Assembly: GCF_900240285.1 (NCBI RefSeq)
Contig: NZ_OESS01000001.1
Coordinates: 1,116,001-1,180,000, forward strand
DNA from: Halobacillus sp. Marseille-P3879
Lineage (GTDB): Bacteria; Bacillota; Bacilli; Bacillales; Halobacillaceae
Length of the DNA: 64,000 bases
Reading direction: 5' to 3'
Shown: piece by piece, positions 11,375-28,273 of the stretch
Numbering within the stretch: the stretch's first letter is position 1
How the letters are laid out: every line of letters starts with the position of its first letter
Notes under the pieces: model-generated
What the model was told of the DNA's origin: nothing
Database searches by the model: none
The model's input: only the letters and a program-made list of their open reading frames with translations
Made by a program: the position numbers and the translations under genes

Positions 11375-11796
11375 TGATGTTCCTCCTCTTTTTTCTTAAA
11401 AAATGGCAACGGGTGAGGACCGACTGAATGAATATCCAAGGTGACTTCCATGTTATAAACAAGATTCGCTTCTTTTATTGGTAAATGTGTTAATAATGAA
11501 GGTCCCTCGGCCAACTGAACAACTCCGACTATATAAGGGGTATACTCTTGCCAGGCTGGATGGCCAGCCCGATGAATAACACTCCATGTTTTTAATTTTC
11601 CATTGCCGGACGCCTGTTTCCATGTTAAGGAATCATGAAAGCAATGGGGACAATGGTTTCGTGGGTAAAAGATCCATTCCCGGCACTCGTCGCATTGCTG
11701 AAGTGATAAAATTCCCTCTTTGATACTATCCCAAAAGGGCTTACTTACTGGTGTAATCGTTGGACCTGGTAATGAAATGTTCTGTAATTGACTCAT
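11371..11796 (-). CDS. DUF35 zinc-ribbon/OB-fold protein
   Basis: A 141-residue protein with a rubredoxin-like zinc ribbon (CDEC and CPHC, about residues 35-52) and a C-terminal OB fold (about 62-130). DUF35 proteins act as partners of thiolase-like enzymes, where they hold or channel acyl-CoA. It overlaps the start of the upstream thiolase-like gene's end by 4 bases (ATGA) and the microprotein start by 4 bases, so it is tightly coupled on both sides. The partner should be the product of 11793-12953. Confidence 0.9.
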   Translation of the reverse strand: MSQLQNISLPGPTITPVSKPFWDSIKEGILSLQQCDECREWIFYPRNHCPHCFHDSLTWKQASGNGKLKTWSVIHRAGHPAWQEYTPYIVGVVQLAEGPSLLTHLPIKEANLVYNMEVTLDIHSVGPHPLPFFKKKEEEHQ

Positions 11797-14896: not shown

Positions 14897-14917
14897 AGTT
14901 GTGTGTCTCCTTTCGGG

Positions 14918-16072
14918 TTACGATGCAGGAACTTCAATTAATATGGCCATTCCCTGGCCTCCACCGCCGCACAGCGATGCAATTCCTTTACCACCGCCCC
15001 GGCGTTTAAGTTCATGAGCAAGTGTCAAGATCAACCGGAAGCCCGTGCCCCCTAAAGGATGGCCAAGAGCGATGGCCCCGCCGTTGACGTTGACGCGGGA
15101 ATAATCAATGTTAAGGTCTCGGCAGCTCGCAATAACCACACTGGCAAAAGCTTCATTAATCTCAAATAAATCAATATCATCCGTGGTTAGATCATGCTTT
15201 TCAAGTAAATGACTGATCGCTTGAGAAGGTTTCGTTTGTAAGCTCGCATCAGGTCCAGCTATCTCTGACCAATCTATGATTTCAGCTAAAGGCTTCTGAT
15301 TAAAAGCTTGCGCCTTTTCCTCAGTCGTTACAATTCCGATACTCGCGCCGTCTGTCATTTGAGAAGCATTACCAGCTGTAATCGATCCTTCCTTAGAAAA
15401 AGCTGGTGAAAGCTGAGCTAGTTTTTTGGCTGAAGTATCAGTCCGTATCCCTTCATCTTCTGTAAGCAGGCCGGAGATAGGGGAGATTTCTGGTTGGAAA
15501 TATCCCTCTTCCTGAGCCTTGGACGCTCTCTGCTGGGAAAGAGCAGCATATTCATCCTGCTCCTTACGGTTAATATCAAAATCAACATTTTTCTTATCGG
15601 TAAGCGCCCCCATCGAAACATCACTTAAGGCGCACCATAAACCGTCGTTTAATAAAGTATCTTTCATCTGTGTATGACCAATACCAGAAGCCATTCGAAC
15701 AGAAGAGGTGTGGGGTGCATTAGTCATAGAATCAAAGCCGCCAACTACATACAATTCACCCTCATCCAGCTTTAATCGTCGTACCGCATCTGCGACCGTT
15801 GCGATTCCACCCAGACATACATTGTTCAGTGTTATCGCTGGCACTGCTAAATTCATCCCTGCCTGGTAAGCCACCTGCCTGGCAGGGTTTTGTCCCCCGC
15901 CGGCTTGTATTACCTCCGCCAGCAGTACCCCATCCGCTTCTTTTGCTACAGGATTTTTATCTATAAGACTAGCGAGAGCCTTTGCCCCAAGCTCAGTAGC
16001 CGATAACTTTCTCAATGCACCCTTCCATTTTCCAAAAGGGGTGCGCGTTCCATCTAAGAGAACTGCTTTCAT
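14918..16072 (-). CDS. Acetyl-CoA C-acetyltransferase (thiolase)
   Basis: A 384-residue thiolase, first gene of the operon. The nucleophile lies in NNVCLGGIATV (Cys near 87), the second site in GGAIALGHPLGGTG and the third Cys in CGGGGQGMA, so all catalytic parts are present. It cleaves acetoacetyl-CoA to acetyl-CoA or runs the reverse. The ATG at 16072 is preferred to the one at 16081, because AAAGGAG lies 9 nt before it while it directly abuts the earlier ATG. The leader carries two SAM-I riboswitches with terminators (16096-16415). Confidence 0.9.
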   Translation of the reverse strand: MKAVLLDGTRTPFGKWKGALRKLSATELGAKALASLIDKNPVAKEADGVLLAEVIQAGGGQNPARQVAYQAGMNLAVPAITLNNVCLGGIATVADAVRRLKLDEGELYVVGGFDSMTNAPHTSSVRMASGIGHTQMKDTLLNDGLWCALSDVSMGALTDKKNVDFDINRKEQDEYAALSQQRASKAQEEGYFQPEISPISGLLTEDEGIRTDTSAKKLAQLSPAFSKEGSITAGNASQMTDGASIGIVTTEEKAQAFNQKPLAEIIDWSEIAGPDASLQTKPSQAISHLLEKHDLTTDDIDLFEINEAFASVVIASCRDLNIDYSRVNVNGGAIALGHPLGGTGFRLILTLAHELKRRGGGKGIASLCGGGGQGMAILIEVPAS

Positions 16073-16095
16073 TACTTTCATCTCCTTTTACTCAT

Positions 16096-16245
16096 AAAAA
16101 AACTCTCCCTGATTAACAAGAAGAGATTTTTACGCTCTTCTTATCTTTCAGGATCATTCCTGCAGGATTTAGCACCTTTTTAAGCATTTGCTTAATGGTT
16201 GCCGGGCATCAACGGGCCAGTCCCTCTGCCTCTCTGGATAAGAAC
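16096..16245 (-). promoter_or_regulatory. SAM-I (S-box) riboswitch, promoter-distal copy with terminator
   Basis: On the minus strand, P1 is CTTATC (16237-16242) with GATAAG (about 16140-16145). Conserved core elements follow in order: AGAGGCAGAGGGACTGGCCC, CCCGGCAACC and GGTGCTAAATCC. The expression platform has CTCTTCT (16119-16125) pairing with GGGAGAG (16103-16109), then seven U, 14 nt before the thiolase ribosome site. The 3' strand of P1, AAGAAGAG, can instead pair with CTCTTCTT, giving the classic antiterminator. High SAM should therefore stop transcription into the acetoacetate operon. Confidence 0.93.
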
Positions 16246-16257
16246 ATCTATTCAATT

Positions 16258-16415
16258 AAAAAACCTCTCTATTTTTGGAATAGAGAGGTTAAGAGATTTA
16301 AGTTTCTCTTATCTTCCTGAGCTATACTCAGTAGGATTTGGCACCGTGCTATTTAAAAAATAGCGGTTGCCGGGTTTCACAGGGCCAGTCCCTCCACCTC
16401 TCTGGATAAGAATAT
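16258..16415 (-). promoter_or_regulatory. SAM-I (S-box) riboswitch, promoter-proximal copy with terminator
   Basis: A second full S-box upstream of the first, on the minus strand: CTTATC (16405-16410), AGAGGTGGAGGGACTGGCCC, GAAACCCGGCAACC, GGTGCCAAATCC and GATAAGAG. Its terminator is a perfect stem CCTCTCTATT/AATAGAGAGG (16264-16288) followed by six U. AAGAGA/TCTCTT gives the antiterminator. Two independent SAM-driven terminators in series should give a steep, low-leak switch. Confidence 0.93.
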
Positions 16416-16443
16416 CGATATCGTTACTATAGAATTAGCTACA

Positions 16444-16472
16444 ATATTAGCAATCTACAGCGGGGATGTCAA
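16444..16472 (-). promoter_or_regulatory. Sigma-A promoter of the acetoacetate operon
   Basis: Minus strand TTGACA (16467-16472), 17-nt spacer, TAATAT (16444-16449). The start point is expected near 16437, some 20-25 nt before the first riboswitch aptamer. Confidence 0.85.
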
Positions 16473-16769
16473 TGTGTTAATTGAAAAGTTCGAAAATTAA
16501 TTATAATTCACGATATATAAATTTACCAGTGATTTATTTTTGAGCAGTACCCCTTTCATTTTTATCTTGATGATTGAGGACTTATCCATTGCAGTTTGGA
16601 ATGAGAAGCCTTAAATTGTTTCTCAAAAGGTGGGGCAAGAATTTTTAGAAATTGTGTTATTAAACCTGACAATATTCCTGACAGAAGATTAATAATACTG
16701 TAAGCTGACTATTAATTAAAACGAACATGAGTTAATCACAATAAAGTTATCAATATTTTCAAAATATTA
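16473..16769. other. Gene-free AT-rich spacer between divergent operons
   Basis: No open frame with a ribosome site, no RNA motif and no strong inverted repeat was recognised here. It separates the SAM-riboswitch operon (minus) from the ECF S-component gene (plus). Confidence 0.6.
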
Positions 16770-16798
16770 TTGAAAGTCTATCAGCTCTTATGTATAAT
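16770..16798 (+). promoter_or_regulatory. Sigma-A promoter of the ECF S-component gene
   Basis: TTGAAA (16770-16775), 17-nt spacer, TATAAT (16793-16798). An operator-like palindrome begins about 11 nt downstream, where a bound repressor would block initiation. Confidence 0.85.
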
Positions 16799-16808
16799 AA
16801 CTTACTAA

Positions 16809-16821
16809 GAAAGCGTTTTCA
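16809..16821. promoter_or_regulatory. LacI-type operator O1 (GAAAGCGTTTTCA)
   Basis: Pseudo-palindrome with central CG just after the promoter -10 box. Related sites occur at 16854, 17726, 17831 and 17898, around the same operon and its LacI gene. It also misses the CcpA consensus by only one base, so CcpA cannot be excluded. Confidence 0.65.
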
Positions 16822-16853
16822 CAACAGTGTAAAGAATTTACTTTTGTGTATGT

Positions 16854-16866
16854 GGAAACGTTTTTA
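16854..16866. promoter_or_regulatory. LacI-type operator O2 (GGAAACGTTTTTA)
   Basis: Second half of a possible operator pair in the leader of the S-component gene, 45 nt from O1, which is about four helical turns and so on the same face of the DNA. Confidence 0.6.
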
Positions 16867-16948
16867 TAAATTGCATATTTAAATGAAAGGGGGACCACTT
16901 AAGGGACAAGCTTTTAAGTTTAGAATAAATAGGAGGGAAAGATAGGAA

Positions 16949-17566
16949 ATGAAAAAACTTTCTAGTTTTATTGTTGCTATGATTCCTGCCGGTATTGCTT
17001 TGAACTGGGTAGCCAACTCAATTGTTGAAATGTTAAAACTGCCTCTTTTCTTAAATAACATTGGCACGGTTTTAAATGCTATTGTTCTTGGTCCTGTCTG
17101 GGGAGCTGCCACGGCTTTAATGACGAACGTCATTCTTGCATTAATTGTTCGCTGGACTTATTTACCCTTTGCTCTAGTTGGAATGTTTGTTGCTTTTTTG
17201 GCTTACTTCTTTTATAAAAAAGGTTGGTTTAAAAAGACTTGGAAAGTTCTTATAGCTGGTGGAATTGTAGGTTTATTGGCCTCTGTTTTATCAACAATTA
17301 TTTCGGTTTACGCTTTTGGAGGGTTCTCGGGTCACACAGTAGACGTACTCACTGCTGGTATGATTGCTTCTGGGCAGGAAATATTCAATGCAGCATTTAT
17401 AGCTAACATTCCTGGAACTGTAGCGGATAAAGTCTTGACTCTATGGATTGTTTGGGTAATTTTGAGATCATTTCCTGTTCGTTTCTTGCCAAATGCTAAA
17501 GATATACGTGAAAAAATTGGTATGAACAACACTAAAAAAAATAAAGACAAGAAAATTTCAGCATAA
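16949..17566 (+). CDS. ECF transporter substrate-binding (S) component
   Basis: A 205-residue membrane protein with five to six spans (about 7-25, 30-50, 55-75, 78-90, 102-125, 150-175). The early segments IPAGIALNWVANSIVEML and VLNAIVLGPVWGAATALMTN resemble ECF S components, which capture the substrate and toggle in the membrane. The basic tail is cytosolic. A GGAGGGAAAG site precedes the ATG. T and two A subunits are encoded 1.4 kb downstream, after the LacI gene. The substrate is unknown; the nucleoside-processing genes in the same cluster suggest a nucleoside or modified nucleoside. Confidence 0.85.
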   Translation: MKKLSSFIVAMIPAGIALNWVANSIVEMLKLPLFLNNIGTVLNAIVLGPVWGAATALMTNVILALIVRWTYLPFALVGMFVAFLAYFFYKKGWFKKTWKVLIAGGIVGLLASVLSTIISVYAFGGFSGHTVDVLTAGMIASGQEIFNAAFIANIPGTVADKVLTLWIVWVILRSFPVRFLPNAKDIREKIGMNNTKKNKDKKISA

Positions 17567-17659
17567 AAAAGACATCAATTCAACAAAAAATTTGAAGAAT
17601 TGATGCCCTAAAAGACTTAGTAAATATTTTATATTACATTAAGCTTAAAATCAATTTCT

Positions 17660-17700
17660 GAACATTGGAGGGCCAATGTTCCTTAGAACTTTGGCCTTTA
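17660..17700 (+). promoter_or_regulatory. Pair of mutually exclusive hairpins (possible attenuator)
   Basis: Hairpin A: GAACATTGG (17660-17668) with CCAATGTTC (17673-17681). Hairpin B: GGCCAA-GTTC (17671-17681) with GAAC-TTGGCC (17686-17696), followed by TTTACGCTTTG. Both use the same CCAATGTTC strand, so only one can form. B has a terminator-like tail, A would act as antiterminator. Confidence 0.45.
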
Positions 17701-17725
17701 CGCTTTGTTTATTAACACTCCTTGA

Positions 17726-17737
17726 GGAAACGTTTCC
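17726..17737. promoter_or_regulatory. LacI-type operator O3, perfect palindrome GGAAACGTTTCC
   Basis: Part of a 14-bp perfect palindrome (17725-17738), about 50 nt upstream of the lacI promoter. It is the best-symmetric member of the set. Confidence 0.65.
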
Positions 17738-17787
17738 TGCCATCGAAAAGCCGCTCAAATAAAATATTCAGTATTTTTGAAAAAATC

Positions 17788-17817
17788 TTGCGGTTATATT
17801 CAACAGAAGGGTATAAT
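17788..17817 (+). promoter_or_regulatory. Sigma-A promoter of the lacI-ecf-nucleoside operon
   Basis: TTGCGG (17788-17793), 18-nt spacer, TATAAT (17812-17817), with operator O4 directly downstream. Confidence 0.7.
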
Positions 17818-17830
17818 AAAATCATTATAT

Positions 17831-17843
17831 TGAAGCGTTTTCA
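17831..17843. promoter_or_regulatory. LacI-type operator O4, perfect palindrome TGAAGCGTTTTCA-like
   Basis: TGAAGCGTTTTCA lies 13 nt after the -10 box, a position where a repressor blocks elongation or initiation. It does not fit the spacing of the CcpA consensus. The two arms are nearly, not exactly, symmetric. Confidence 0.6.
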
Positions 17844-17897
17844 TTTAAGGTATGTTAATTTCATATGAGTTACTTATATAGAATTCCATGTTTACAA

Positions 17898-17910
17898 GGA
17901 AACGTTTTCA
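17898..17910. promoter_or_regulatory. LacI-type operator O5 (GGAAACGTTTTCA)
   Basis: Lies 22 nt before the lacI start codon, 67 nt from O4. With O3 and O4 it makes three sites around this promoter, as expected for looped autorepression. Confidence 0.6.
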
Positions 17911-17931
17911 TAAAGAAAAGGAAGTGTACAA

Positions 17932-18969
17932 ATGGTTACTATCAAAGATGTGGCAAAAGAAGCTAATGTTTCTATATCGACGGTGTCCCGAGTGTTAAAC
18001 AATAGTGGCTATACCAGTATGGAAGTGAAAGAGAAAGTCAATAAAGCTGTTGAAAAACTTAAATTCCAAAAAAATATGGTAGCCACAGCCATGATAAAGA
18101 AGCAAACCGCAACATTCGGTTTAATTATTCCTGATATTAAGAATATTTTTTATGGAGAATTAACTCGGGCTATTGAAGATCATGCCAACCAATATGGGTT
18201 CAATGTCATTCTTTGTAATACCGATAACGACCTGGATAAAGAAGCGGAATATCTTAACTTTTTAATCCGAAAAGGGGTCGACGGGGTTATTTTTTCTACT
18301 CCGGAAATGAATGACAGAAATATAAAGGAAGTGATGAGATCGAGGTCTGATTTAGCCTTTATCAGTTTGGGAAGTCAAGTTAGCGACGTGCAAATAGACG
18401 AAGTTCTTGTGAATAACTTCGAAGGTGGATATGAAGCGACGAAACACTTATTGGACCGTGGCCACCGAAGTATAGGTTATATAGGGGGACAGGCTGATTC
18501 TTATGCATCTACTGAACGATTAAAAGGATACAGCCAGGCTTTAGAAGATCAGGGTTTAAAAGTGAACAAGAAGTTTACTAGACTAGGTGAGTTCAAAATT
18601 CAGAGTGGTTACGATAAAGGAAAAGAGTTGTTATCACTAAAAGACCGACCAACTGCAATTTTTGCGGGAAATGATGCAATTGCAGTTGGGGTATATAAAG
18701 CAGCAAGAGAGCTTCATCTTTCAATCCCTGGAGATGTATCCGTAATCGGATTTGATGATTCCCAATTTGCTGAAATTGTATTTCCAACACTGACGACGAT
18801 TCGGACGCCTATCGAAGACATGGCCCAAAAGACAGTAGAACTAGCTGTGCAAATTTCACGAAAAGGGAAGAATTTTAAAGAAACGGTTACTTTTCAACCA
18901 ACGTTAATTGAGCGCGAGTCAACTAGCAGGGTTTCACTTGAAAATATCCCTTTCTATAAGGGTTCATAA
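17932..18969 (+). CDS. LacI-family transcriptional regulator of the ECF/nucleoside operon
   Basis: A 345-residue repressor. The LacI helix-turn-helix and hinge are at 1-60 (TIKDVAKEANVSISTVSRVLNN). The periplasmic-binding-like domain begins at about 62 (FGLIIPDIKNIFYGEL) and includes FAGNDAIAVGVYKA and SVIGFDDSQFAEIVFP. It sits inside the transporter cluster, between S and T genes, with operator-like sites before both promoters, so local control is likely. The effector may be a nucleoside, a pentose-1-phosphate or a base. It is not CcpA by context, though it belongs to the same superfamily. Confidence 0.92.
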   Translation: MVTIKDVAKEANVSISTVSRVLNNSGYTSMEVKEKVNKAVEKLKFQKNMVATAMIKKQTATFGLIIPDIKNIFYGELTRAIEDHANQYGFNVILCNTDNDLDKEAEYLNFLIRKGVDGVIFSTPEMNDRNIKEVMRSRSDLAFISLGSQVSDVQIDEVLVNNFEGGYEATKHLLDRGHRSIGYIGGQADSYASTERLKGYSQALEDQGLKVNKKFTRLGEFKIQSGYDKGKELLSLKDRPTAIFAGNDAIAVGVYKAARELHLSIPGDVSVIGFDDSQFAEIVFPTLTTIRTPIEDMAQKTVELAVQISRKGKNFKETVTFQPTLIERESTSRVSLENIPFYKGS

Positions 18970-18981
18970 GGAGGAAAATGT

Positions 18982-19881
18982 GTGAACAGTTTATACTTGC
19001 CCAAGGAGAGCTTTATTCACAATCTTGATCCTAGAACTAAAATGATTTTTGTGGCTTTTGTCGTTCTTAGTTCTTTTATCTTAAATGATCCCGCCCTTCA
19101 GTTACTATTCTTAGTATTTCTTTTTCCGCTAGTTGTTGCAGCAAAGCTAGTAAAGCCTTATCTCATCTCTATGCAGTTTCTGCTGCTTTTTGCCGTACTA
19201 ATTATGACGGTACATGGAATCTACAATCCTATCGGTGTTACTCCTGTCTTTGAAATATTTGGTGGCCTCACATTTAAATATGAGTCAATGGTTTATGCAA
19301 GTGTTATGTCGTTTCGGATTTTAGTTATTGGTACCGCTGCTGTTCTGTTCGTTATGAGCACTCATCCTTCAGACATGGCTTCAGCTCTTGTGAAATGGAA
19401 GGTTCCTCATTCCTTTGCTTTCATTTTATTGTCAACGTTTCAAATCATTCCAATTATTGCGCGAGAAGCCAAAATAGTAATGGAAGCTCAGCAAGCACGA
19501 TGTTTAGATGTGAAAGGAAATTTAATTCAACGTGTGAAAAACCTAATTCCCATATTCGCCCCCCTTTTTATTATCACATTTATGAAAGTACATCAGCTCT
19601 CTTACGTATTGGAATGTCGAGCTTTCAGTCGAGAAGGCGCAAAAACCAGCTTAAGAGATACAAGAATTGGATATAAGGATTATGCATTTTTAATAGGAAT
19701 CCTTTTATTTCTTGCAATAGAGATTTACTTGCAACTTTATTTAAGCGGCTTTCTTAATCTAACAACAGATGCTTTACTCACTTATTCTTTAATAGGCACA
19801 TGGGTGGTATTTGGGTTTATGATCCTCAAGTTTATCTTTAAACGTGTACAAAGTTTAGTAGGAGGTGTGGCAGATGCTTAA
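18982..19881 (+). CDS. ecfT: ECF transporter transmembrane (T) component
   Basis: A 299-residue membrane protein of the EcfT/CbiQ family with about six spans. The two coupling helices are recognisable by QQARCLDVKGN (about 171) and LECRAFSREGAKTS (about 211), variants of the Ala-Arg-X signatures that contact the ATPases. GTG start at 18982 with AAGGAGG 7 nt upstream. The last 8 bases overlap the ATPase gene. It is a dedicated T subunit: the genes sit with their own S component, so this is a group I-type ECF system spread over two transcription units. Confidence 0.9.
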   Translation: MNSLYLPKESFIHNLDPRTKMIFVAFVVLSSFILNDPALQLLFLVFLFPLVVAAKLVKPYLISMQFLLLFAVLIMTVHGIYNPIGVTPVFEIFGGLTFKYESMVYASVMSFRILVIGTAAVLFVMSTHPSDMASALVKWKVPHSFAFILLSTFQIIPIIAREAKIVMEAQQARCLDVKGNLIQRVKNLIPIFAPLFIITFMKVHQLSYVLECRAFSREGAKTSLRDTRIGYKDYAFLIGILLFLAIEIYLQLYLSGFLNLTTDALLTYSLIGTWVVFGFMILKFIFKRVQSLVGGVADA

Positions 19882-20734
19882 GAATCAAAGAGCCATTGAA
19901 GTTTCTGGACTATCTTTTCTTTTTCCTGATGCAGAGGTGAAAGCATTAAGAAATATTAACTTTTCCGTAGATTACGGGGAAATTCTTGGCATTATTGGAC
20001 CTACAGGAGCAGGGAAATCAACGCTTGCTATGTGTATTAACGGGCTGGTCCCACAGGTTATTCAAGGGGAATTAGAAGGTAAAGTTTATGTCAAGGGACT
20101 GGATGTTCACAAGGGCAATGTAGCTAAAATGTCTGAACACGTCGGGTTTGTTTTTCAAGAACCAGAAAACCAGCTTAGCCAAATGACGATTGAGGAAGAA
20201 GTAGCGTTTGGGCTAGGGAACTTAGGGGTTCCAAGAGAACAAATGGAGGGCCGAATTAAAGAAGCCCTCCAGCAGGTGGGTTTACTAGGATTTGAGAAAC
20301 GAAGCCCTCTTGCATTATCCGGAGGACAGCAGCAACGTCTGGCTATTGCTTCTGTTCTTGCAATGAAGCCAACTATTATGATTATGGACGAACCAACTTC
20401 TATGCTCGATCCTAAGGGAAAGAATGAAGTATATGATGTACTGAGAAGCCTTAAGGAACACGGAATGACTGGAATTATTATTGACCATGAAGTTGAAAGA
20501 ATAGCGGAGTATTGTGATAAGGTGCTCGTTCTAAATGAAGGAGAAGAGCAAATGTTCGGTCCTTCTGCAGAGGTCTTTGCGCAAATTGACACACTTCATC
20601 AATTGACTATGCATGCTCCTCAGGTTACTGAACTTCTCCATCAATACAATCAGAAAAACAAACAAGATGTAAAATTATCAACTAGTATCGAAGAAGCTGC
20701 AGCAATATTAGAAAACGCTTACATTAAGAGTTGA
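19874..20734 (+). CDS. ecfA1: ECF transporter ATPase A1
   Basis: A 286-residue ATPase with a complete set of motifs: Walker A GPTGAGKST (about 45), Q-loop FQEPENQLSQMTI, signature LSGGQQQRLAIASVLA (about 142) and Walker B IMIMDEPTSMLD, with H-loop IIDHEVERI. The Q-loop text PENQL is characteristic of ECF ATPases. The ATG at 19874 is preferred to the GTG at 19865, which lies inside the AGGAGG ribosome site. It pairs with A2 as a heterodimer. Confidence 0.92.
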   Translation: MLKNQRAIEVSGLSFLFPDAEVKALRNINFSVDYGEILGIIGPTGAGKSTLAMCINGLVPQVIQGELEGKVYVKGLDVHKGNVAKMSEHVGFVFQEPENQLSQMTIEEEVAFGLGNLGVPREQMEGRIKEALQQVGLLGFEKRSPLALSGGQQQRLAIASVLAMKPTIMIMDEPTSMLDPKGKNEVYDVLRSLKEHGMTGIIIDHEVERIAEYCDKVLVLNEGEEQMFGPSAEVFAQIDTLHQLTMHAPQVTELLHQYNQKNKQDVKLSTSIEEAAAILENAYIKS

Positions 20735-20758
20735 ACTATTATTAAGGAGGGCTATTTT

Positions 20759-21607
20759 ATGGAGCCGTATATTTCAGTCCGTGATGTGACTCATGTTTAT
20801 TCAAATGGGGTTACTGCTATAAAGGATATTGACCTTGATATTTATGATAATGAAGCGGTAGCTATTTTAGGGAGTAATGGATCTGGAAAAACGACGTTAG
20901 TGAAACACTTTAATGGGCTGTTAAAGCCAACTAAGGGAAAAATTACTGTCGGAGGCTTAAATACAAGGAAAGAGCGAATCTCTAAGTTGTCCAGTTTAGT
21001 AGGATATGTTTTCCAAAACCCAAATCACCAAACTTTTTTACCGAACGTGATCCAGGAACTGGAATACGGCTGTAAGAATCTGCGTATGTCAGAAGAAGAG
21101 ATTGAAGAGCGTGTAAACAAAGCAGTTGAGCTTTTTGAATTAGAAAATTATTTAAACGAGAATCCATTTGATCTTAATTCCAGTCAGAGAAAAGAAGTAG
21201 CGATGGCTTCAATTATGGCCATATCCCCGCGGGTAATTGTCTTGGACGAGCCAACAACCGGTCAAGACCATAAAGGCTGTCAGCGGATACTACATCTCGT
21301 TCGTATGTTCCAGAAGCACGGACACATTGTGGTGTTAATTACCCATGATATGCATTTAATAGGAGAATTAAATTGCCGAACAGTCGTCATGCATCAGAGT
21401 GAAAAGGTTGCTGATGGCCATGCTGAGGACGTCTTCGCTGACAAGAGGATTATGGATTTGGCAGGACTTCAACCTCCTCAAATTACTTCACTTGCTCATA
21501 GTTTACCGTTTTTAAATTCTAATAAAACCTATTTAACCATTGATTCCGTTTTACAATCGATGAAAGTAAACACTGAGGAGGGCGTTAAAATTGTTACACG
21601 AACTTAA
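20759..21607 (+). CDS. ecfA2: ECF transporter ATPase A2 with degenerate signature motif
   Basis: A 282-residue ATPase. Walker A GSNGSGKTT (38-46), Q-loop FQNPNHQTFLPNV (85-97), Walker B VIVLDEPTTGQD (159-170) and H-loop LITHDMHLI are intact. The ABC signature is not: LSGGQ is replaced by LNSSQRKEV (139-147). In a heterodimer this would weaken the ATP site formed by this signature with Walker A of A1. Asymmetric ATPase pairs are known in ABC transporters, but a changed signature is unusual in ECF systems. Its 3' end overlaps the next gene by 17 bases. Confidence 0.9.
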   Translation: MEPYISVRDVTHVYSNGVTAIKDIDLDIYDNEAVAILGSNGSGKTTLVKHFNGLLKPTKGKITVGGLNTRKERISKLSSLVGYVFQNPNHQTFLPNVIQELEYGCKNLRMSEEEIEERVNKAVELFELENYLNENPFDLNSSQRKEVAMASIMAISPRVIVLDEPTTGQDHKGCQRILHLVRMFQKHGHIVVLITHDMHLIGELNCRTVVMHQSEKVADGHAEDVFADKRIMDLAGLQPPQITSLAHSLPFLNSNKTYLTIDSVLQSMKVNTEEGVKIVTRT

Positions 21608-22454
21608 ATGGAAGTCTAAAGCCTATCGACCAGAATTAGAAGATCATTCCCAGTACCATATTCGTTGCAAACCAGGAGATATTGCGAAGTATGTTCTATT
21701 ACCTGGTGACCCAGAGCGCGTCGGGCAAATGGCTGAGCAGTGGGATCAAAAAGAACATATCGCTACTTATAGAGAACACGTTACATACACTGGAAAAGTT
21801 GGTGGTGTAGATATTTCAGCGTGTTCGACTGGAGCGGGAGGCCCTTCTACAGCCAGTGCATTGGAAGAGCTAGCTGAGATTGGGGCAGAAACTTTCATTC
21901 GTGTAGGTACTTGCGGGGCAATGCAGGAAAACATTAATCCTGGAGATCTTATCATCTGCGCCGGAGCTGTCCGATACGACGGTACGAGTGACCAATACGT
22001 TGATTCTAAGTTTCCGGCTGTAGCAAACCAGGAAGTAATAATGGCATTGATCGAAGCTGCTGAACGACTTGGAGTCACTTATCACGTAGGTATCGGATAC
22101 ACTTCAGCTTCCTTTTTCTGTGGTCAAGGACGTCCAGGCTTTAATAACTACAATCAAAGCTTTATGAACACAATCATGGACGATATGCAAAAAGCAGGCG
22201 TTTTGAATTTTGAAATGGAAGCAGCAACTGTATTAACCCTGAGTAGTTTATTTAACTTAAGGTCGGGAGCTATATTTACAGCAGTTGCAAATAGAGTGAA
22301 GGATGAATTCGCTTATAAAGGAGAAGGTGTAACTCAATCAATCGCTGTGGCAACAGAAGCTACTAAAATATTAAATCAGTGGGATGAATTAAAGAAAAAA
22401 TCAGGCAAGCCTTACTTTTTCCCCTCATTATTACAAAATGAAAAAACAATATAA
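21591..22454 (+). CDS. Nucleoside phosphorylase, uridine phosphorylase-like (NP-I family)
   Basis: A 287-residue cytosolic enzyme. Phosphate-binding LPGDPERVGQM (about 37) and CSTGAGGPSTASALEEL, RVGTCGAMQENINPGD and the ribose-site FEMEAATVLTL (about 204) mark the NP-I family. FFCGQGRPGFN keeps the Gln and Arg that bind the uracil ring in E. coli Udp, so uridine-type pyrimidine nucleosides are the best guess. The product would be pentose-1-phosphate. The start is TTG with GAGGAGGG 8 nt upstream, inside ecfA2. A purine nucleoside role is the alternative. Confidence 0.88.
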   Translation: MLHELKWKSKAYRPELEDHSQYHIRCKPGDIAKYVLLPGDPERVGQMAEQWDQKEHIATYREHVTYTGKVGGVDISACSTGAGGPSTASALEELAEIGAETFIRVGTCGAMQENINPGDLIICAGAVRYDGTSDQYVDSKFPAVANQEVIMALIEAAERLGVTYHVGIGYTSASFFCGQGRPGFNNYNQSFMNTIMDDMQKAGVLNFEMEAATVLTLSSLFNLRSGAIFTAVANRVKDEFAYKGEGVTQSIAVATEATKILNQWDELKKKSGKPYFFPSLLQNEKTI

Positions 22455-22472
22455 TTATAAGGAGGACTTTGA

Positions 22473-23264
22473 ATGAAAATAGGAATCGTTGGCGGTACAG
22501 GATTTTATAATTTAGTGGATGGTATGGTGGAGCAAACAGTTTCCACTGAGTATGGAGAAGTAACTGTCTTTGTTGGAAAGTATGCGGGTAAAGACATTTA
22601 TTTTCTTCCTAGGCACGGAAAAACTCATGACAGTCTAGCCCATGAAATCAATTATCGAGCTAATATGCTTGCATTAAAAGAATTAGGAATAAACCATGTA
22701 ATAGCGATGTGCGCGGTAGGTTCTTTAAATCCACAAATCCCAGTAGGAACTTTAGCTTTGCTAGACCAATTTATGGATGTGACTACAAAGCGTGTGACCA
22801 CTTATGGGAAATATTCTGTAGAAATTACCCAGCCATATTGTCCTGACCTTAACCAGAGTTTCTTAGACGCAGCGGGGGAGCTAGGATATGAGATTGTTCC
22901 AAAAGCGAACTACATTTGTGTGGACGGTCCACGCTATGAAACTTCGTTAGAAATTAATGTGTATAAACAGTGGGGAATGGATGTGGTAGGAATGACGAAT
23001 GCAACAGAAGCCATTCTGGCACGTGAATTAGGTCTTGCTTATGCTGTAGTGACGATCTCAACAGACTTAGCGGCAGGAACTACGGATGTCCCACCGGATC
23101 TAGAGACCCACAAAAATGTAGTGAAAGACAATCAGCAAAAAATCCGCAGCCTTTTCCTTAAGGCAGTTGAATTGATTTCTAATGAGCGACCTTCCATTGC
23201 TCATAAAGCTTACGAAAGAGCTTTGGCAGCTCGCAAAGAAAAATTGGCTAAACCGAGTGTGTAA
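22473..23264 (+). CDS. MTA/purine nucleoside phosphorylase family protein (MtnP-like)
   Basis: A 263-residue enzyme of the PNP/MTAP family (NP-I trimeric type). It shows GIVGGTGFYNL at the start, FLPRHGKTHDSLAHEINYRANM (about 47-68), the GSL loop CAVGSLNPQIPVG, CVDGPRYET and GMTNATEAILAREL (about 173). The adenine-pocket region, TDYD in methylthioadenosine phosphorylases, reads STDLAAGTTD here, so it could accept 6-amino or 6-oxo purines. It would release a base and (5-substituted) ribose-1-phosphate. Strong GGAGG site before the ATG. Confidence 0.88.
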   Translation: MKIGIVGGTGFYNLVDGMVEQTVSTEYGEVTVFVGKYAGKDIYFLPRHGKTHDSLAHEINYRANMLALKELGINHVIAMCAVGSLNPQIPVGTLALLDQFMDVTTKRVTTYGKYSVEITQPYCPDLNQSFLDAAGELGYEIVPKANYICVDGPRYETSLEINVYKQWGMDVVGMTNATEAILARELGLAYAVVTISTDLAAGTTDVPPDLETHKNVVKDNQQKIRSLFLKAVELISNERPSIAHKAYERALAARKEKLAKPSV

Positions 23265-23270
23265 CTGGCA

Positions 23271-24692
23271 ATGTCAGTATTGATTAAAAATGCTGAAATT
23301 CTATCAATGGATGATGTGAGAGGCACCATAAAAGGAAGTTTATTTATAGAAGAAGGAAAAATAACAAGAATCTTTCCACATGAACAAAAAGCGGGTGCAC
23401 CGGTCCTTGCAGCAGAGGAAGTCATCGATGCTCAGTGGAACCTTCTAATACCAGGGATGACCAATGCACATTATCATTCGTATTCCAACCTTCTTAAGGG
23501 AACGAAGAGTAACTTGCCTTTAGAACTCTGGTCTTTGTATACCATTGCATATGGACTTTCTTTAGATGATGAAGATATTTATTTATCTGTTCTCATCGGT
23601 GCTGCCGACATGATCCGCAGCGGCATTACTGGGTGTGTTGATCATTTTCCTCACTTGAACAGAGCGGTTGCGGCTTTGCAAGCGTATGAGAAGTCAGGTA
23701 TGCATGTTGGATTTGCCCCAATGATACAGAATGTTTCAGATGAAGAGTTTTTAGGTTTGTCTGATGAGAAAAATAACCCAGTGTACGAACTGGATGAAAT
23801 AAGGGATTTCTACACCAACCTCATACACAATTGGCACTTAAAAAATGAAAAAATTCAAGTCATGCTGGGTCCTAATGCACCACAAAGGTGCAGCCAGGAA
23901 GCATTAAAGTTATGTAAGGACCTGAGTGATCAATATGGGTTAGAAGTTCACACTCATTTATTAGAAACGAAAATTCAAAAGGATATCGGAGATCTAACTT
24001 TCGCTAACGGGGTATTGGGTCATTTAGACGAAGCAGGATTACTAAATGAAAAACTGTCAGTCGCTCATGCGGTTTGGTTAGACGAGCACGAAATGAATCG
24101 AATAATAGAAAAAGATGTTTCTGTAGTGCATAACCCTGCCAGCAATATGATTTTGGGGAGCGGGATTGCTCCTGTAGCTAATTATGTGAATCGCAATATT
24201 TCTGTAGGGCTAGGTTCAGATGCATCAAATTGCGGAATCAGCCATTGCTCATTTGAAATGATGAGATTGTCTCTCATGATGTCCCGAGTAAACAATAGAG
24301 ACTATGAAAATTGGCTGCAGCCTGATGAGGTGTTCAATATGGCCACACGCTCTGGAGGTCACATAGTAAAGGGAAGCAAGCGGGGGAAAATTGCGGAAGG
24401 TTATAACGCAGATCTTGTTCTTGTTAATCGAAAATCAAACACGTTCATTTCAAAGGAAGATTTAATCTCTCAACTTGTTTTTTATGAACAAGGACAATCT
24501 ATTAAAGCTGTCATGATTAAAGGAAAGTGGGTTTATCGAGAGAATAAGATACTTGCTTTTGATGAGCAGGAGATAATTGAGCGTATTCAAGAGAGATCAG
24601 GTGAATTAAGAAGGAGAGTACAGGGAGCGCTTTCGAAAGTAGAAGAGAAGAAACCAGTTTTAGAAGAGTTTTATCACCAATTTTATAACTAG
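23271..24692 (+). CDS. Amidohydrolase, nucleoside/MTA-SAH deaminase-like
   Basis: A 473-residue TrzA/AtzA-type metal hydrolase of the amidohydrolase superfamily. Metal ligands are in place: HYH (67 and 69), VHTHLLE (near 224), AHAVWLDEHE (near 263) and the catalytic Asp in GLGSDAS. Relatives deaminate methylthioadenosine, S-adenosylhomocysteine, adenosine or guanine. In this operon it may turn an aminopurine nucleoside or base into the form that the phosphorylases use. It starts 6 nt after the previous stop with no strong ribosome site, so translation is probably coupled. The substrate cannot be told from sequence. Confidence 0.85.
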   Translation: MSVLIKNAEILSMDDVRGTIKGSLFIEEGKITRIFPHEQKAGAPVLAAEEVIDAQWNLLIPGMTNAHYHSYSNLLKGTKSNLPLELWSLYTIAYGLSLDDEDIYLSVLIGAADMIRSGITGCVDHFPHLNRAVAALQAYEKSGMHVGFAPMIQNVSDEEFLGLSDEKNNPVYELDEIRDFYTNLIHNWHLKNEKIQVMLGPNAPQRCSQEALKLCKDLSDQYGLEVHTHLLETKIQKDIGDLTFANGVLGHLDEAGLLNEKLSVAHAVWLDEHEMNRIIEKDVSVVHNPASNMILGSGIAPVANYVNRNISVGLGSDASNCGISHCSFEMMRLSLMMSRVNNRDYENWLQPDEVFNMATRSGGHIVKGSKRGKIAEGYNADLVLVNRKSNTFISKEDLISQLVFYEQGQSIKAVMIKGKWVYRENKILAFDEQEIIERIQERSGELRRRVQGALSKVEEKKPVLEEFYHQFYN

Positions 24693-24704
24693 GAGGGTAT
24701 GTGT

Positions 24705-25313
24705 ATGAATTTAGAATTGTTAAAAAAAGAATTGCAATATGTTTCTCGTAAAATTTACCAAAAGGGTTATACACAGGCCACAGGTGGAAATATTAGTGTG
24801 AGAATTCCAGGGACTGACTATGTACTCATAAAGAGAAGCGGAATCAGCCTTGGAGAGGTTACTCGAGAAGATGCTCTGATTGTCGATATGGATGGAGAGG
24901 TTATTGAAGGTCAAGGAAAGCCTTCAAAGGAAATTGGTTTTCACTTAGGAGTATATAAAGTTCGGCCAGACGTAAACGCGATTGTTCACTGTCACCCTAA
25001 TTACTCCATCGGGTATGCATGCCTTGGGATGGAACTTCCACTGCCAACAGTGACAGCTCAAAAGTTACTAGGACACGTGCCGGTAGCAGATACAGCACCT
25101 TCTGGGTCAAAAGAATTAGCTCAGCACGTGACGGACGTGTTTACAAAGTATCCAGACATCAAAATTTCTCTTATGAAAAATCATGGGGTTTGTGCGGTAG
25201 GTCCAACTTTGGAAGCTGCTTATAATGTAGTTGACCTTGCGGAAGCAACAGCAAAACAGGCTTTTATACTCTCGCAGCTTCGCGTTGTGGAAAAAAACGC
25301 AGTAACTCAATAA
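24705..25313 (+). CDS. Class II aldolase, Ald2/DrdA/fuculose-1-phosphate aldolase type
   Basis: A 202-residue zinc aldolase. The metal site is complete: Glu76 in SKEIGFH, His95 and His97 in VHCHPNY, His160 in KNHGVCAVG. The N-terminal GNISVRIPG loop binds the phosphate. Family members cleave ketose-1-phosphates to DHAP and an aldehyde. With the isomerase directly downstream it should split the ketopentose-1-phosphate made from the nucleoside sugar. Glycolaldehyde, acetaldehyde or methylthioacetaldehyde would be the second product for ribose, 5-deoxyribose or methylthioribose. ATG 24705 is chosen over 24699 for ribosome-site spacing. MtnB-type dehydratases share the fold and are an alternative. 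Confidence 0.85.
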   Translation: MNLELLKKELQYVSRKIYQKGYTQATGGNISVRIPGTDYVLIKRSGISLGEVTREDALIVDMDGEVIEGQGKPSKEIGFHLGVYKVRPDVNAIVHCHPNYSIGYACLGMELPLPTVTAQKLLGHVPVADTAPSGSKELAQHVTDVFTKYPDIKISLMKNHGVCAVGPTLEAAYNVVDLAEATAKQAFILSQLRVVEKNAVTQ

Positions 25314-25328
25314 GAAAGGAGGTATATT

Positions 25329-26396
25329 ATGCGACTAATTGAACAATTTGTTCAAGAAAACAAAGAAAAAGGACTGGCAATGCCGATCTGGTTTGAAAAT
25401 GGAACTTTAAAACTAATCGATCAAACTAAACTTCCTTTTAAAGAAGACGTATGTCAAATCACGAGTGTCAGTCAACTGGGTAAAGCCATCTCCTCCATGA
25501 TGATTCGAGGTTCAGGGGCCATAGGAATTTGTGGGGCATATGGCATTTTTTTGGCTGCATTACAAACAAATGGGAATCCTCAAGAGGTAAAAGAAGCTGG
25601 AGATTTTTTGAAAAACACGCGACCAACCGCTGTGAACCTTATGAAAACCGTAGATGAAATAGTGGAACAAGCTAAAGGTTCTGGAGAAGAACTCATTACA
25701 ACAGTTGAAGAAAAGGCAGTTGGTATACTTAAACGTCAATTAGATTTTGAATATCAGCTTGGTTCTTATGGAGCTGAGTTAATCAATGACGGTGATAGGA
25801 TTATGACACACTGTCACTCAGGTGCTTTTGGGGGAGCTGGATACGGAGGTAGAGCCCTTTCAGTTATTAGAACCGCCCATGAGCAAGGTAAAAACATCCA
25901 TATCTACACGTGTGAGACACGTCCATATTTACAAGGAGCTCGAATTACCGCATTAGAACTTAAGAAATTTGGTATCCCTCACACATTAATTACCGATAAC
26001 ATGTCCGGATTTTGTATGAGTGAAGGCTATATCGACAAAGTTGTCGTTGGCTCCGATCGGGTGGCCTCCAACGGGGATTTAGCCAATAAAGTTGGAACGT
26101 ATATGCATGCCCTAGCGGCTCAAAATCATGACATACCTTTTTATGCAGCAACTTCCAGTCATACCATAGACTTTAACACACCTGCCGGAAGATATATTGA
26201 AGTCGAAATGCGTAATCCGAGTGAGGTGACACATTTTAATGGAAAACCTATAGCTCCTGAAGGGGTTCAGGCATTATACCCTTCTTTTGATATTACTCCA
26301 AACTCGTTAATTACAGGAATTATTACAGAAAAGGGGGTAATAACCGCTCCTTATGAGACGCACTTGAGAAAAGTAATTGAAAAATCCGCTGTATAG
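25329..26396 (+). CDS. MtnA-like aldopentose-1-phosphate isomerase (aIF-2B-alpha family)
   Basis: A 355-residue enzyme of the MtnA/ribose-1,5-bisphosphate isomerase family. The two catalytic residues of MtnA are conserved: Cys162 in MTHCHSGAFG and Asp243 in VGSDRVASNGD. RGSGAIGICGAYG (60-72) matches the phosphate-loop RGAPAIG of MtnA with one change. It should turn an aldopentose-1-phosphate into the ketose-1-phosphate. No kinase, dehydratase or enolase of the usual methionine salvage pathway is nearby, and the aldolase precedes it, which favours a DHAP-forming route. AGGAGGT precedes the ATG. Confidence 0.88.
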   Translation: MRLIEQFVQENKEKGLAMPIWFENGTLKLIDQTKLPFKEDVCQITSVSQLGKAISSMMIRGSGAIGICGAYGIFLAALQTNGNPQEVKEAGDFLKNTRPTAVNLMKTVDEIVEQAKGSGEELITTVEEKAVGILKRQLDFEYQLGSYGAELINDGDRIMTHCHSGAFGGAGYGGRALSVIRTAHEQGKNIHIYTCETRPYLQGARITALELKKFGIPHTLITDNMSGFCMSEGYIDKVVVGSDRVASNGDLANKVGTYMHALAAQNHDIPFYAATSSHTIDFNTPAGRYIEVEMRNPSEVTHFNGKPIAPEGVQALYPSFDITPNSLITGIITEKGVITAPYETHLRKVIEKSAV

Positions 26397-26429
26397 TATA
26401 ATCTATCTGGTATGGCAGGAGGTTGATGT

Positions 26430-26600
26430 ATGATAAAAGAAGCTTTTCTCGCGATGATCGCGGGAATCGTGATCGGTGTTGTTTTTAAATTAATAAAACT
26501 TCCTTTACCCGCTCCTCCTGTGTTAGCTGGAGTTCTTGGTGTAGCAGGTGTGTATATAGGAGGAAAAATTATTGAGGTTCTTTTTATGAGATTCCAGTAG
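26430..26600 (+). CDS. XapX-domain small membrane protein
   Basis: A 56-residue protein with two hydrophobic helices (about 5-18 and 31-51) separated by the conserved KLPLPAPPVLAGVLG turn of the XapX family (DUF1427). AGGAGG lies 7 nt before the ATG. It ends the nucleoside operon. XapX-type proteins are named from a xanthosine locus in enterobacteria, which fits the nucleoside theme, but their role is unknown. Confidence 0.85.
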   Translation: MIKEAFLAMIAGIVIGVVFKLIKLPLPAPPVLAGVLGVAGVYIGGKIIEVLFMRFQ

Positions 26601-27019
26601 GTGAAAGAGCAAAAGGATTGGTATATAATAAAAGAAATCATTTACCTAGCATGAAATACTACATCTCTTTCTTACAGGAGATATGATTTTATAAGGAGCT
26701 TGAGGTGGAAGAAGATAATGTTAAGCAAAAATGTAGATGAATAGATAGTGGTCAAAACAGGTTCCTATTGATAGTTTCAATTAATGATGCTCGATACTGA
26801 AAAAGATATGGAACGAGTGACTTGTACAACCTCTGAATTTGAGAAAAAGAAATTGATAAGCTTGGAACTTCCTTGAGCAGATGAGTCCCTTTTATGGAAT
26901 GAAGAAACCTTTTCTCCTTATGAGAAAAGGTTTTTTAAAATGACTCTTTTTAGTTAAATACCTATTTTGTTATTAAGTTTCCGGGGTCTTAAGATTTTTT
27001 AGCAGCTCCAATAGTTCAC
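26601..27019. other. Gene-free region between the nucleoside operon and sat
   Basis: About 420 nt without a supported gene. It holds only tiny frames under 25 codons, one with a usable ribosome site near 26710, and one clear terminator at 26906-26936. Nothing else was recognised. Confidence 0.6.
26906..26936 (+). terminator. Rho-independent terminator downstream of the nucleoside operon
   Basis: AACCTTTTCT and AGAAAAGGTT form a 10-bp stem with a 7-nt loop, followed by a T run. It lies about 300 nt after xapX and is the first good terminator there. Confidence 0.85.
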
Positions 27020-27049
27020 TTGTTTGAATATTTGCTAAAATCATATATT
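27020..27049 (+). promoter_or_regulatory. Candidate promoter of sat
   Basis: TTGTTT (27020-27025), 18-nt spacer, TATATT (27044-27049), about 65 nt before the start codon. No S-box, T-box or CymR-type site was recognised. Confidence 0.45.
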
Positions 27050-27115
27050 TATGTTTCTATTTATAGAGGAGAAAAAAGCGGCTTGGCTCGCTACTTTAAA
27101 CAACGGAGGTATATG

Positions 27116-28273
27116 ATGACCGTACAATTAAAACCACAGCAATTAAATGAATTAGTAAACAAAGAAGTAGAAGGAAAAGATCGCCAAGAGGCACTTGAGC
27201 AAGCAAAAAAACTTCCTTCACTTACGATATCCGCCTGGACGATTTCAGATCTTGAGCTCATTGGGATTGGAGGCTTCAGTCCGCTTCAAGGCTTCATGGG
27301 CAAGGCTGATTATGAGCGTGTTGTAAACGAACTGCGTTTAAAGGATGGCACGGTCTGGAGTATCCCCATTACACTCCCTGTAACAGAGAGTCAGGCTGAT
27401 GAGATCAAAATCGGAGAAGAAATCGCTCTGAAGGGTGAAGACGGTATCACTTATGGAACGATTCACGTTGAAGAAAAATTCACCTATGATGAGAAACTTG
27501 AAGCCGAGAAAGTTTACGGTACAAAAGAAGAAGCTCACCCTGGGGTGAAGAAGGTTTACGATAAGGGAAATGTATACCTTGGGGGACCTATCAAGCTTCT
27601 CAATCGTCCGGACCACGGTAAATTTAAAGATTATTACTTAGACCCTGCAGAAACGCGTCAGTTATTTAAGGATTTAGGGTGGAAAACAGTAGTAGGCTTT
27701 CAAACGCGTAATCCGGTACACCGTGCGCATGAGCACATTCAAAAAACAGCACTTGAAGCCGTCGACGGCCTTTTATTAAATCCGTTAGTGGGAGAAACCA
27801 AGTCTGATGACATTCCGGCAGATGTGCGTATGGAAAGCTATGAAACGATTATTCAAAATTATTATGTTAAAGATCGCGTTCGTCTTGTGATTTATCCTGC
27901 AGCTATGCGTTATGCCGGACCGCGGGAAGCGATCTTACACGCCATCGTCCGTCGAAATTACGGTTGTACTCACTTCATCGTCGGACGCGACCATGCGGGT
28001 GTCGGTGATTATTACGGAACGTATGATGCTCAGGAACTTATCGCTAAATATGAAGATGAACTTGGCATCAGTATTTTTAAATTCGAGCATGCGTTTTACT
28101 GCGAGATATGTGAAAACATGGCATCAGCAAAAACTTGCCCTCATGACAAGAAGCACCACGTCCACCTTAGTGGGACAAAGGTTCGGGAGCTGCTGAGAAA
28201 CGGAGAACGTCCTCCGAAAGAATTCTCTCGTCCAGAGGTAGCTGATGTATTAATTAAGGGAATGAAGCAATAA
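27116..28273 (+). CDS. sat: Sulfate adenylyltransferase (ATP sulfurylase)
   Basis: A 385-residue enzyme that makes adenosine 5'-phosphosulfate from ATP and sulfate. The PUA-like N-domain (about 1-165) precedes the catalytic domain with [14 protein letters not shown] (about 198, the ATP-binding QxRN and HxxH motifs) and [44 protein letters not shown] contains the bacterial zinc-binding cysteines. CGGAGGT precedes two in-frame ATGs, and 27116 gives the better spacing. The upstream frame extension has no support. No APS kinase or reductase gene is adjacent. Confidence 0.95.

Follow-up and report, generated by a model that had tools for sequence, protein, structure and literature searches.

A conserved energy-coupling factor (ECF) importer cassette of Halobacillus with a putative phosphopentomutase-bypassing route from nucleosides to dihydroxyacetone phosphate

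In the dihydroxyacetone phosphate (DHAP) shunt, 5-deoxy sugars are converted to DHAP and a C2 aldehyde by enzymes whose gene clusters also hold putative transporters (PMC6079011, PMC12632272). The non-carboxylating pentose bisphosphate pathway of halophilic archaea employs a nucleoside phosphorylase, an IF-2B-family isomerase and a ribulose-1-phosphate aldolase to arrive at DHAP and glycolaldehyde, and the ribose-1,5-bisphosphate (R15P) isomerase of nucleoside degradation acts on a ribose that carries an oxygen at C5 (PMC9700705). With respect to uptake, an ECF S protein of Clostridioides difficile, a QrtT, is reported to transport preQ1, queuine and the nucleoside queuosine (PMC11130926), and a nucleoside importer of Thermococcus is a BMP-type ABC transporter (PMC12628685). 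Here we analyzed a gene cassette of Halobacillus sp. Marseille-P3879 that combines an ECF importer with enzyme families of these pathways. It occupies positions 16949-26600, on the + strand, of a 64-kb stretch of DNA (the window; contig NZ_OESS01000001.1, positions 1,116,001 to 1,180,000) from a host genome of 4.17 Mb in 9 contigs.

All eleven genes of the cassette are open frames on one strand and match their families in profile scans, which bears out the gene cluster reported in a preliminary description of this DNA. From 5' to 3' they encode an ECF S component, a LacI-family repressor, an ECF T component, two ECF ATPases, a uridine phosphorylase (UP)-like protein, a methylthioadenosine phosphorylase (MTAP)-like protein, an amidohydrolase, a class II aldolase, an MtnA-like isomerase and a XapX protein. 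Gene content and motifs make it fairly probable that the cassette is a carbon-catabolic operon for exogenous ribonucleosides that proceeds via ribulose-1-phosphate. The S component, with its own T component and two ATPases, would import nucleosides; the UP-like and MTAP-like enzymes, judged by their families and motifs, would free pyrimidine and purine bases and yield ribose-1-phosphate; the isomerase would convert ribose-1-phosphate directly to ribulose-1-phosphate, with neither a kinase nor phosphopentomutase; and the aldolase would cleave ribulose-1-phosphate to DHAP and glycolaldehyde. Genes that neighbor the cassette in relatives suggest that glycolaldehyde would be oxidized to glycolate and glyoxylate, that malate synthase G (MSG) would condense the latter to malate, and that malic enzyme would then turn malate into pyruvate. 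To the more specific proposal, an ECF importer joined to a kinase- and phosphopentomutase-free conversion of ribose-1-phosphate to DHAP and glycolaldehyde through a new MtnA-family activity, the C2 product leaving via glyoxylate and MSG, we give an even chance.

The distribution of the cassette was surveyed with the S protein, which matched 40 of the 299 class-level genomes and 20 of the 299 order-level ones, counting that of the window. Carriers were four members of the order (G340, G373, G540 and G362; 80-90% identity), genome G928 of another class, which was found via its isomerase (59% identity), and 13 further records; because G540 and G373 are the same as records L154 and L157 and were counted once, there were 17 distinct genomes including that of the window. 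S proteins of these genomes were 56-100% identical, the closest among named records being those of Halobacillus and Thalassobacillus. Without XapX, which is present in 12 of the 17, the ten-gene cassette ranges from Halobacillus to Moorella and is complete in 16 genomes: the S, LacI, T, MTAP-like and isomerase genes and both ATPase genes occur in all 17 (the first ATPase of G340 was recovered by tblastn, not as an open reading frame call), and the UP-like, amidohydrolase and aldolase genes in 16. The run from the T gene through both ATPase, UP-like, MTAP-like, amidohydrolase, aldolase and isomerase genes has an identical order in 16 of 17 genomes. The lacI gene lies before rather than after the S gene in three, namely the two carriers outside the window's class (G928 and Moorella stamsii, L165) and L164; the order is otherwise constant. 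This recurring arrangement is more than chance.

The putative ribose-1-phosphate isomerase (25329-26396) scored 357.5 bits against the MtnA model TIGR00512, above the cut-off of 279, and 202.2 bits against the R15P isomerase model TIGR00511, below the cut-off of 314.1. Catalytic residues named in the preliminary description hold up on alignment: Cys162 and Asp243 of the isomerase are invariant in 13 aligned homologues, and the Glu and three His of the aldolase (24699-25313; PF00596, 163.6 bits) are invariant in six, although the latter become E78, H97, H99 and H162, two higher than first numbered, if the ATG at 24699 is taken as the start. The best PDB match of this proposed ribulose-1-phosphate aldolase was 6btd/6btg (94.4 bits), of which 6btd is, we assume, the drd aldolase. 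Three isomerase motifs, RGSG, CHSG and GRA, were found in 15 of 15 cassette rows in view, compared with RGAP, CNAG and GTA in 33 of 33 comparator rows (27 distinct). The comparators consisted of the 28 best-scoring other loci (less L129 and L142, which had no open reading frame row), with six of these entered a second time as longer stretches, plus L151, and include no known DrdI. Solved R15P isomerases (5yfj/5yft and 3a11, the latter presumably the Thermococcus enzyme) read THCHSKA at this site and the MtnA entry 1t9k reads THCNAGA; the catalytic-Cys motif CHSG of the cassette isomerase is thus like the CHSK of R15P isomerases. In a tree of 48 rows (42 different), constructed without the solved R15P isomerases and Bacillus subtilis MtnA, the 15 cassette rows stood apart with a branch support of 100/100. 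A methionine salvage role was considered for the isomerase and rejected, since the window's genome has no IF-2B-family match besides it. Because the MtnA cut-off is passed, annotation will nevertheless name the protein MtnA and predict methionine salvage despite the lack of a second IF-2B-family isomerase among the matches. A direct step from ribose-1-phosphate to ribulose-1-phosphate in bacteria was not found in the open-licence literature, to which our searches were confined (subscription papers lay outside their scope).

An alternative to be weighed against these isomerase data is that the cassette is a DHAP shunt for exogenous 5'-deoxynucleosides, such as 5'-methylthioadenosine (MTA) and 5'-deoxyadenosine, in which the MTAP-like enzyme would yield 5-deoxy- or 5-methylthioribose-1-phosphate and the isomerase and aldolase would convert this to DHAP and acetaldehyde or methylthioacetaldehyde. 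The nearest solved or modelled relatives of the enzymes are indeed MTAP, MtnA and the fuculose-phosphate-aldolase-type 6btd, and the genome holds no other IF-2B-family isomerase; the shunt lets E. coli grow on MTA and 5'-deoxyadenosine (PMC10986504), and some drd clusters include putative sugar transporters (PMC6079011). Against this, the isomerase motif of every cassette row differs from that of every comparator row, and a shunt offers no obvious place for the UP-like enzyme. Taken with the amidohydrolase, MSG and S-homologue data given below, these points make the alternative unlikely.

The UP-like phosphorylase (21591-22454; TIGR01718, 268.6 bits, just under the cut-off of 280.3) could be aligned over 214-243 residues to uridine phosphorylases of solved structure. 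It has the G-Q-x-R motif of three of the four solved uridine phosphorylases shown and keeps the N-terminal His; we take these to be the contacts to uracil and to the 5'-OH in E. coli uridine phosphorylase. The MTAP-family phosphorylase (22473-23264; TIGR01694, 235.1 bits, cut-off 274.85 missed) has Asp at position 198, as do all 19 cassette rows (17 distinct), and the 26 MTAP comparator rows (19 distinct) have Asn in 21 and Asp in five (L117, L118, L121, L146 and L147). By analogy with human purine nucleoside phosphorylase (PNP) N243D and MTAP, the Asp suggests 6-aminopurine recognition, as a hint only. His213 of the same protein was tried as a PNP-type 5'-OH His and dropped, because every one of the 11 MTAP-family proteins in the alignment has it, also those from DHAP-shunt-type loci. 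Elsewhere in the window's genome (contig C7, L106:6954-10074), a phosphorylase-superfamily protein with a lipoprotein-like signal peptide, recognized by eye, is encoded next to a second phosphorylase gene and a LacI gene, and is possibly an exported nucleoside-cleaving enzyme.

The amidohydrolase (23271-24692; PF01979) fell below the cut-off of every specific deaminase or hydrolase model listed here: 254.7 bits for 5'-deoxyadenosine deaminase PRK07228 (cut-off 522), 130.7 bits for the MTA/S-adenosylhomocysteine (SAH) deaminase PRK15493 (cut-off 779), 265.0 bits for the N-ethylammeline chlorohydrolase model (cut-off 609) and 207.1 bits for 8-oxoguanine deaminase (cut-off 532). Together with the amidohydrolases of three loci that lack the cassette (L070-L072; 49-50% identical to that of the window), it forms one group with motifs of its own, and in those three loci the gene lies between a nucleoside hydrolase gene and an S gene. 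Amidohydrolases beside MTAP and isomerase genes in L148, L149, L150 and L152, loci that were typed by context and not by model scan, are 25-33% identical to members of this group and have other motifs. Both the missed 5'-deoxyadenosine and MTA/SAH deaminase cut-offs and this distance from the amidohydrolases of four MTAP/isomerase loci speak against a DHAP shunt, and the enzyme is a probable deaminase of a base or nucleoside. The amidohydrolase has diverged fast, a pattern that a change of substrate or a gene exchange might produce: it is 64% identical to that of G340 and 74% to that of L153, compared with 81-96% for the other cassette proteins of these two genomes, and in G340 alone 64% compared with 81-93% for its operon neighbors.

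Evidence on the fate of the C2 product comes from genes next to the cassette in relatives. MSG is the next long same-strand gene after the isomerase or XapX gene in 11 of 17 genomes (G340, G362 and L154-L162), and an MSG copy in L068 passed the TIGR01345 cut-off (1201.9 bits, cut-off 989.15). A fumarylacetoacetate (FAA)-hydrolase gene lies between the S and lacI genes in 11 of 17, accompanied in four of 17 by a malic enzyme gene. A set of glcF-like, glcD-like, MSG and FAA-hydrolase genes stops ~4 kb upstream of S in Neobacillus thermocopriae (L163), and because an IclR-type gene and two opposite-strand genes intervene, this MSG run is a separate transcript. In the window's genome the single MSG match belongs to a run of MSG, GntR-type (by eye), glcE-like, glcF-like, glcD-like and FAA-hydrolase genes at C9:1004559-1012616. 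The cassette-linked genes are paralogues of those in glycolate-oxidase-like runs of three genomes, the window's and two relatives'; the linked proteins of H. andaensis are 66-67% (MSG) and 57-60% (FAA-hydrolase) identical to the copies in these runs. The most economical explanation is that the cassette acquired copies of glycolate/glyoxylate genes because it makes a C2 compound, glycolaldehyde (expected from ribulose-1-phosphate cleavage) rather than acetaldehyde; MSG and malic enzyme neighbors fit the former and not the latter, a further point against the DHAP shunt. A tblastn search of the window detected no remnants of FAA-hydrolase, malic enzyme or MSG genes. Because MSG-linked relatives surround the window and L153 in the isomerase tree, the linked copies were probably lost in both.

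A different exit would apply if the isomerase product were dephosphorylated or otherwise routed, not cleaved, the aldolase acting on another sugar phosphate. The observation that raises this alternative comes from the sole incomplete carrier, Aquibacillus albus (L164), which keeps S, T, both ATPases, the MTAP-like protein and the isomerase: a gene of the 2-phosphosulfolactate-phosphatase family (TIGR00298, 102.9 bits, cut-off 175.05 missed) lies between its MTAP-like and isomerase genes (L164:13432-16088), and in this variant ribulose-1-phosphate is possibly dephosphorylated to ribulose. As a general account it is highly improbable, given that the aldolase gene is kept with the isomerase gene in 16 of 17 genomes and that the adjacency of MSG fits a C2 product.

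Genes for the S component (16949-17566), the T component (18982-19881; CbiQ family, PF02361, 103.1 bits) and the two ECF ATPases (19865-20734, TIGR04520, 265.9 bits, cut-off 315 not reached; 20759-21607, TIGR04521, 239.1 bits, cut-off 330 not reached) lie together and are kept in 17 of 17 genomes. The S component, a predicted substrate-binding membrane protein, scored 127.8 bits on NF045596 ('CD3073 family putative ECF S component'), under the cut-off of 180. An AlphaFold model computed from 12 sequences had a best mean pLDDT of 70.9 (39.7-53.7 for the other four models), and its six best PDB matches in Foldseek were chains of ECF transporters (probability 0.90-1.00, E 0.13-0.76). The named S components among them bind riboflavin, folate, thiamin (ThiT) or biotin.

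To see which genes accompany S homologues outside the cassette, we fetched 36 neighborhoods of the 56 non-cassette matches listed and dropped three (L083, L087 and L091) that had no S frame, which left 33. A run was defined by the same strand and gaps of at most 400 bases, and partners were labelled by blastp to seeds that included PF01156 and PF00294 members (a RihA/RihC-like hydrolase with 339.8 bits on RihA, cut-off 433 missed, and a ribokinase with 337.7 bits, cut-off 299.65). The runs held a UP-like gene in eight cases, a nucleoside hydrolase gene in seven and a PfkB kinase gene in six; a UP-like or nucleoside hydrolase partner was present in 15 of 33, and at least one of the three partner types in 17 of 33. 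The company of nucleoside hydrolase and ribokinase genes is again at odds with a DHAP shunt. Eight runs, with ~30% S identity, are compact and consist of UP-like, S, T and two ATPase genes (L085, L089, L094, L095, L098, L102, L104 and L105); they may be a less elaborate version of the nucleoside importer proposed here. A CRP-family regulator gene is also part of four of these runs (L085, L089, L094 and L098); it recurs in L084, where nucleoside hydrolase and PfkB genes take the place of the UP-like gene. Another S-linked run (L070:3213-16730; similar in L072 and partly in L071) encodes LacI, metallo-beta-lactamase-fold, short-chain dehydrogenase, BtpA and nucleoside hydrolase proteins, an amidohydrolase of the same group as the window's, ECF proteins, Asp/Glu racemase-like and 3-hydroxyisobutyrate dehydrogenase-like proteins, an SBD_N/NBD_C kinase and a class II aldolase, and is perhaps a further nucleoside or ribose route.

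These partner data also bear on the possibility that the enzymes degrade nucleosides while the ECF transporter imports another nucleoside or base source, such as a modified nucleoside, a nucleobase or a nucleoside-like cofactor precursor. A ligand for this S family was not found in the open-licence literature, the S component misses the CD3073 cut-off, S is accompanied by the amidohydrolase subfamily in three non-cassette loci, possibly a sign of one particular base or modified nucleoside, and QueT/QrtT ECF proteins carry queuosine precursors (PMC11130926). The partners of S homologues, however (pyrimidine/purine-type nucleoside hydrolase, UP-like protein and ribokinase), have nucleosides as their common substrate class, and we hold this possibility to be rather remote, slightly more so than the DHAP shunt. 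For import of nucleosides as such, the QrtT report places nucleosides within reach of the ECF S fold and provides a precedent for ECF transport of a modified nucleoside; the new element would be catabolic uptake of ordinary nucleosides, as no ECF importer of that kind was found in the open-licence literature. The preliminary remark, itself guarded, that no characterized ECF transporter for nucleosides was known accordingly needs qualifying with regard to queuosine (PMC11130926).

The cassette had originally been described as phosphopentomutase-free, and the absence of deoB had been proposed as a check. That the organism lacks phosphopentomutase was rejected, since deoB is present in the window's genome (C8:867402-868541; 636.2 bits over TIGR01696) and in all 11 genomes tested, six of which carry the cassette; the cassette would thus bypass phosphopentomutase and does not replace it. 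Gene context, motifs and gene order support the core reading, in which nucleosides enter by ECF import and are broken down to DHAP and a C2 aldehyde through phosphorolysis, isomerization and aldol cleavage. Between the two substrate classes first put forward, whole nucleosides are favored over MTA and 5'-deoxynucleosides because of the adjacency of MSG in 11 of 17 genomes, the CHS motif of the isomerase, the amidohydrolase scores under the deaminase cut-offs and the nucleoside hydrolase and ribokinase partners of S homologues.

Several observations weigh against an operon for ribonucleoside catabolism via ribulose-1-phosphate. Both deoB and a PNP are present in the genome, which provides a standard route and leaves the advantage of a bypass unexplained. 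The cassette isomerase passes the NCBIfam MtnA model, and His213, shared with DHAP-shunt-type MTAPs, is no proof of 5'-OH binding. The S model is only moderately confident and its fold matches are below significance, with TM scores of 0.44-0.47; moreover, 16 of 33 S-homologue runs had none of the three partner types, and these counts come without a matched control from other S families. The Aquibacillus cassette has no UP-like, amidohydrolase or aldolase gene, and consequently the exit step is not universal. On the C2 side, the glcD-, glcE- and glcF-like proteins score under their NCBIfam cut-offs, and the cassette has no glycolaldehyde dehydrogenase gene, the rest of the genome not having been searched for one. 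MSG is not at the locus in the window, its nearest relative L153 or Aquibacillus, and neither G928 nor M. stamsii yielded an MSG match anywhere in its genome; glycolaldehyde disposal in these five genomes must therefore differ.

The LacI-family repressor (17932-18969; profile scans) probably represses from candidate palindromes before its own gene. A search of the 64 kb for RGGAAACGTTTCCY with at most two mismatches gave two matches, both in the gap between the S and lacI genes: the perfect palindrome AGGAAACGTTTCCT at 17725-17738 and a second operator-like site, AGGAAACGTTTTCA, with two mismatches at 17897-17910. In the whole window 0.82 matches were expected, and at least two occurred in 15 of 100 shuffles. 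Similar palindromes precede lacI in some relatives, and in others none passed the filter. A scan for consensus promoters and terminators revealed no excess over shuffles (21 vs 28.7 and 8 vs 8.0, respectively). No riboswitch was found on the cassette; Rfam models applied to 16000-28000 gave only two S-adenosylmethionine (SAM) riboswitches, on the opposite strand before a thiolase-like gene. These are in tandem (16138-16412, - strand; 97.8 and 91.5 bits, gathering threshold 44.4), are accompanied by terminator-like hairpins at 16290-16262 and 16125-16103, and precede a thiolase-like, acetoacetyl-CoA-synthetase-like and thiolase-like run (11793-16081, named by eye), genes ahead of which a SAM riboswitch looks unexpected. 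At its 3' end the cassette closes with the XapX-domain small membrane protein (26430-26600; TIGR03510, 57.8 bits, cut-off 27.8 passed) and is followed by a sulfate adenylyltransferase-like gene (27020-28273, identified by eye).

If the proposed function is correct, catabolic nucleosides would join the substrates of ECF transporters, and a family that NCBIfam calls putative would gain a ligand; CD3073-like S proteins at large would import nucleosides throughout Bacilli and form a second ECF nucleoside branch beside QrtT and queuosine. Ribose-1-phosphate would have a further bacterial fate beside DeoB, and the MtnA scaffold would have been re-tuned towards the motif of the archaeal R15P isomerase.

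Among known systems, the DHAP shunt (mtnP or mtnK/drdK, mtnA/drdI and ald2/drdA) is like the cassette in that a phosphorylase or kinase, an MtnA-family isomerase and a class II aldolase are encoded in one cluster. The cassette differs in its proposed substrates, ordinary nucleosides, in having two phosphorylases and no kinase, the CHS motif and a dedicated ECF importer, and in its other amidohydrolase subfamily and the MSG gene that adjoins it in relatives; a test of a DHAP-shunt isomerase on ribose-1-phosphate was not met in the accessible portions of PMC6079011, PMC10986504 and PMC12632272. The halophilic-archaeal pathway shares the kinds of enzymes and the final aldol step with the proposed route. 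That pathway, however, phosphorylates ribose-1-phosphate to R15P and dephosphorylates ribulose-1,5-bisphosphate (RuBP), whereas the complete cassette has no such kinase or phosphatase; neither a ribose-1-phosphate kinase nor an RuBP phosphatase is encoded in the window's cassette, the rest of the genome not having been searched. Glycolaldehyde is reduced to ethylene glycol in the archaeal pathway and would be oxidized in the route proposed here. Classical nucleoside catabolism through a phosphorylase, DeoB and the pentose phosphate pathway has phosphorolysis to ribose-1-phosphate in common with the cassette, which would bypass DeoB. With regard to transport, the cassette resembles dedicated-module ECF transporters in that S, T and two ATPases are encoded in one operon; QueT and QrtT are likewise ECF S components, yet they serve salvage for tRNA modification and not catabolism of ordinary nucleosides. 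Thus, the proposed steps of the cassette resemble those of the DHAP shunt and of halophilic-archaeal nucleoside degradation, and their combination is new.

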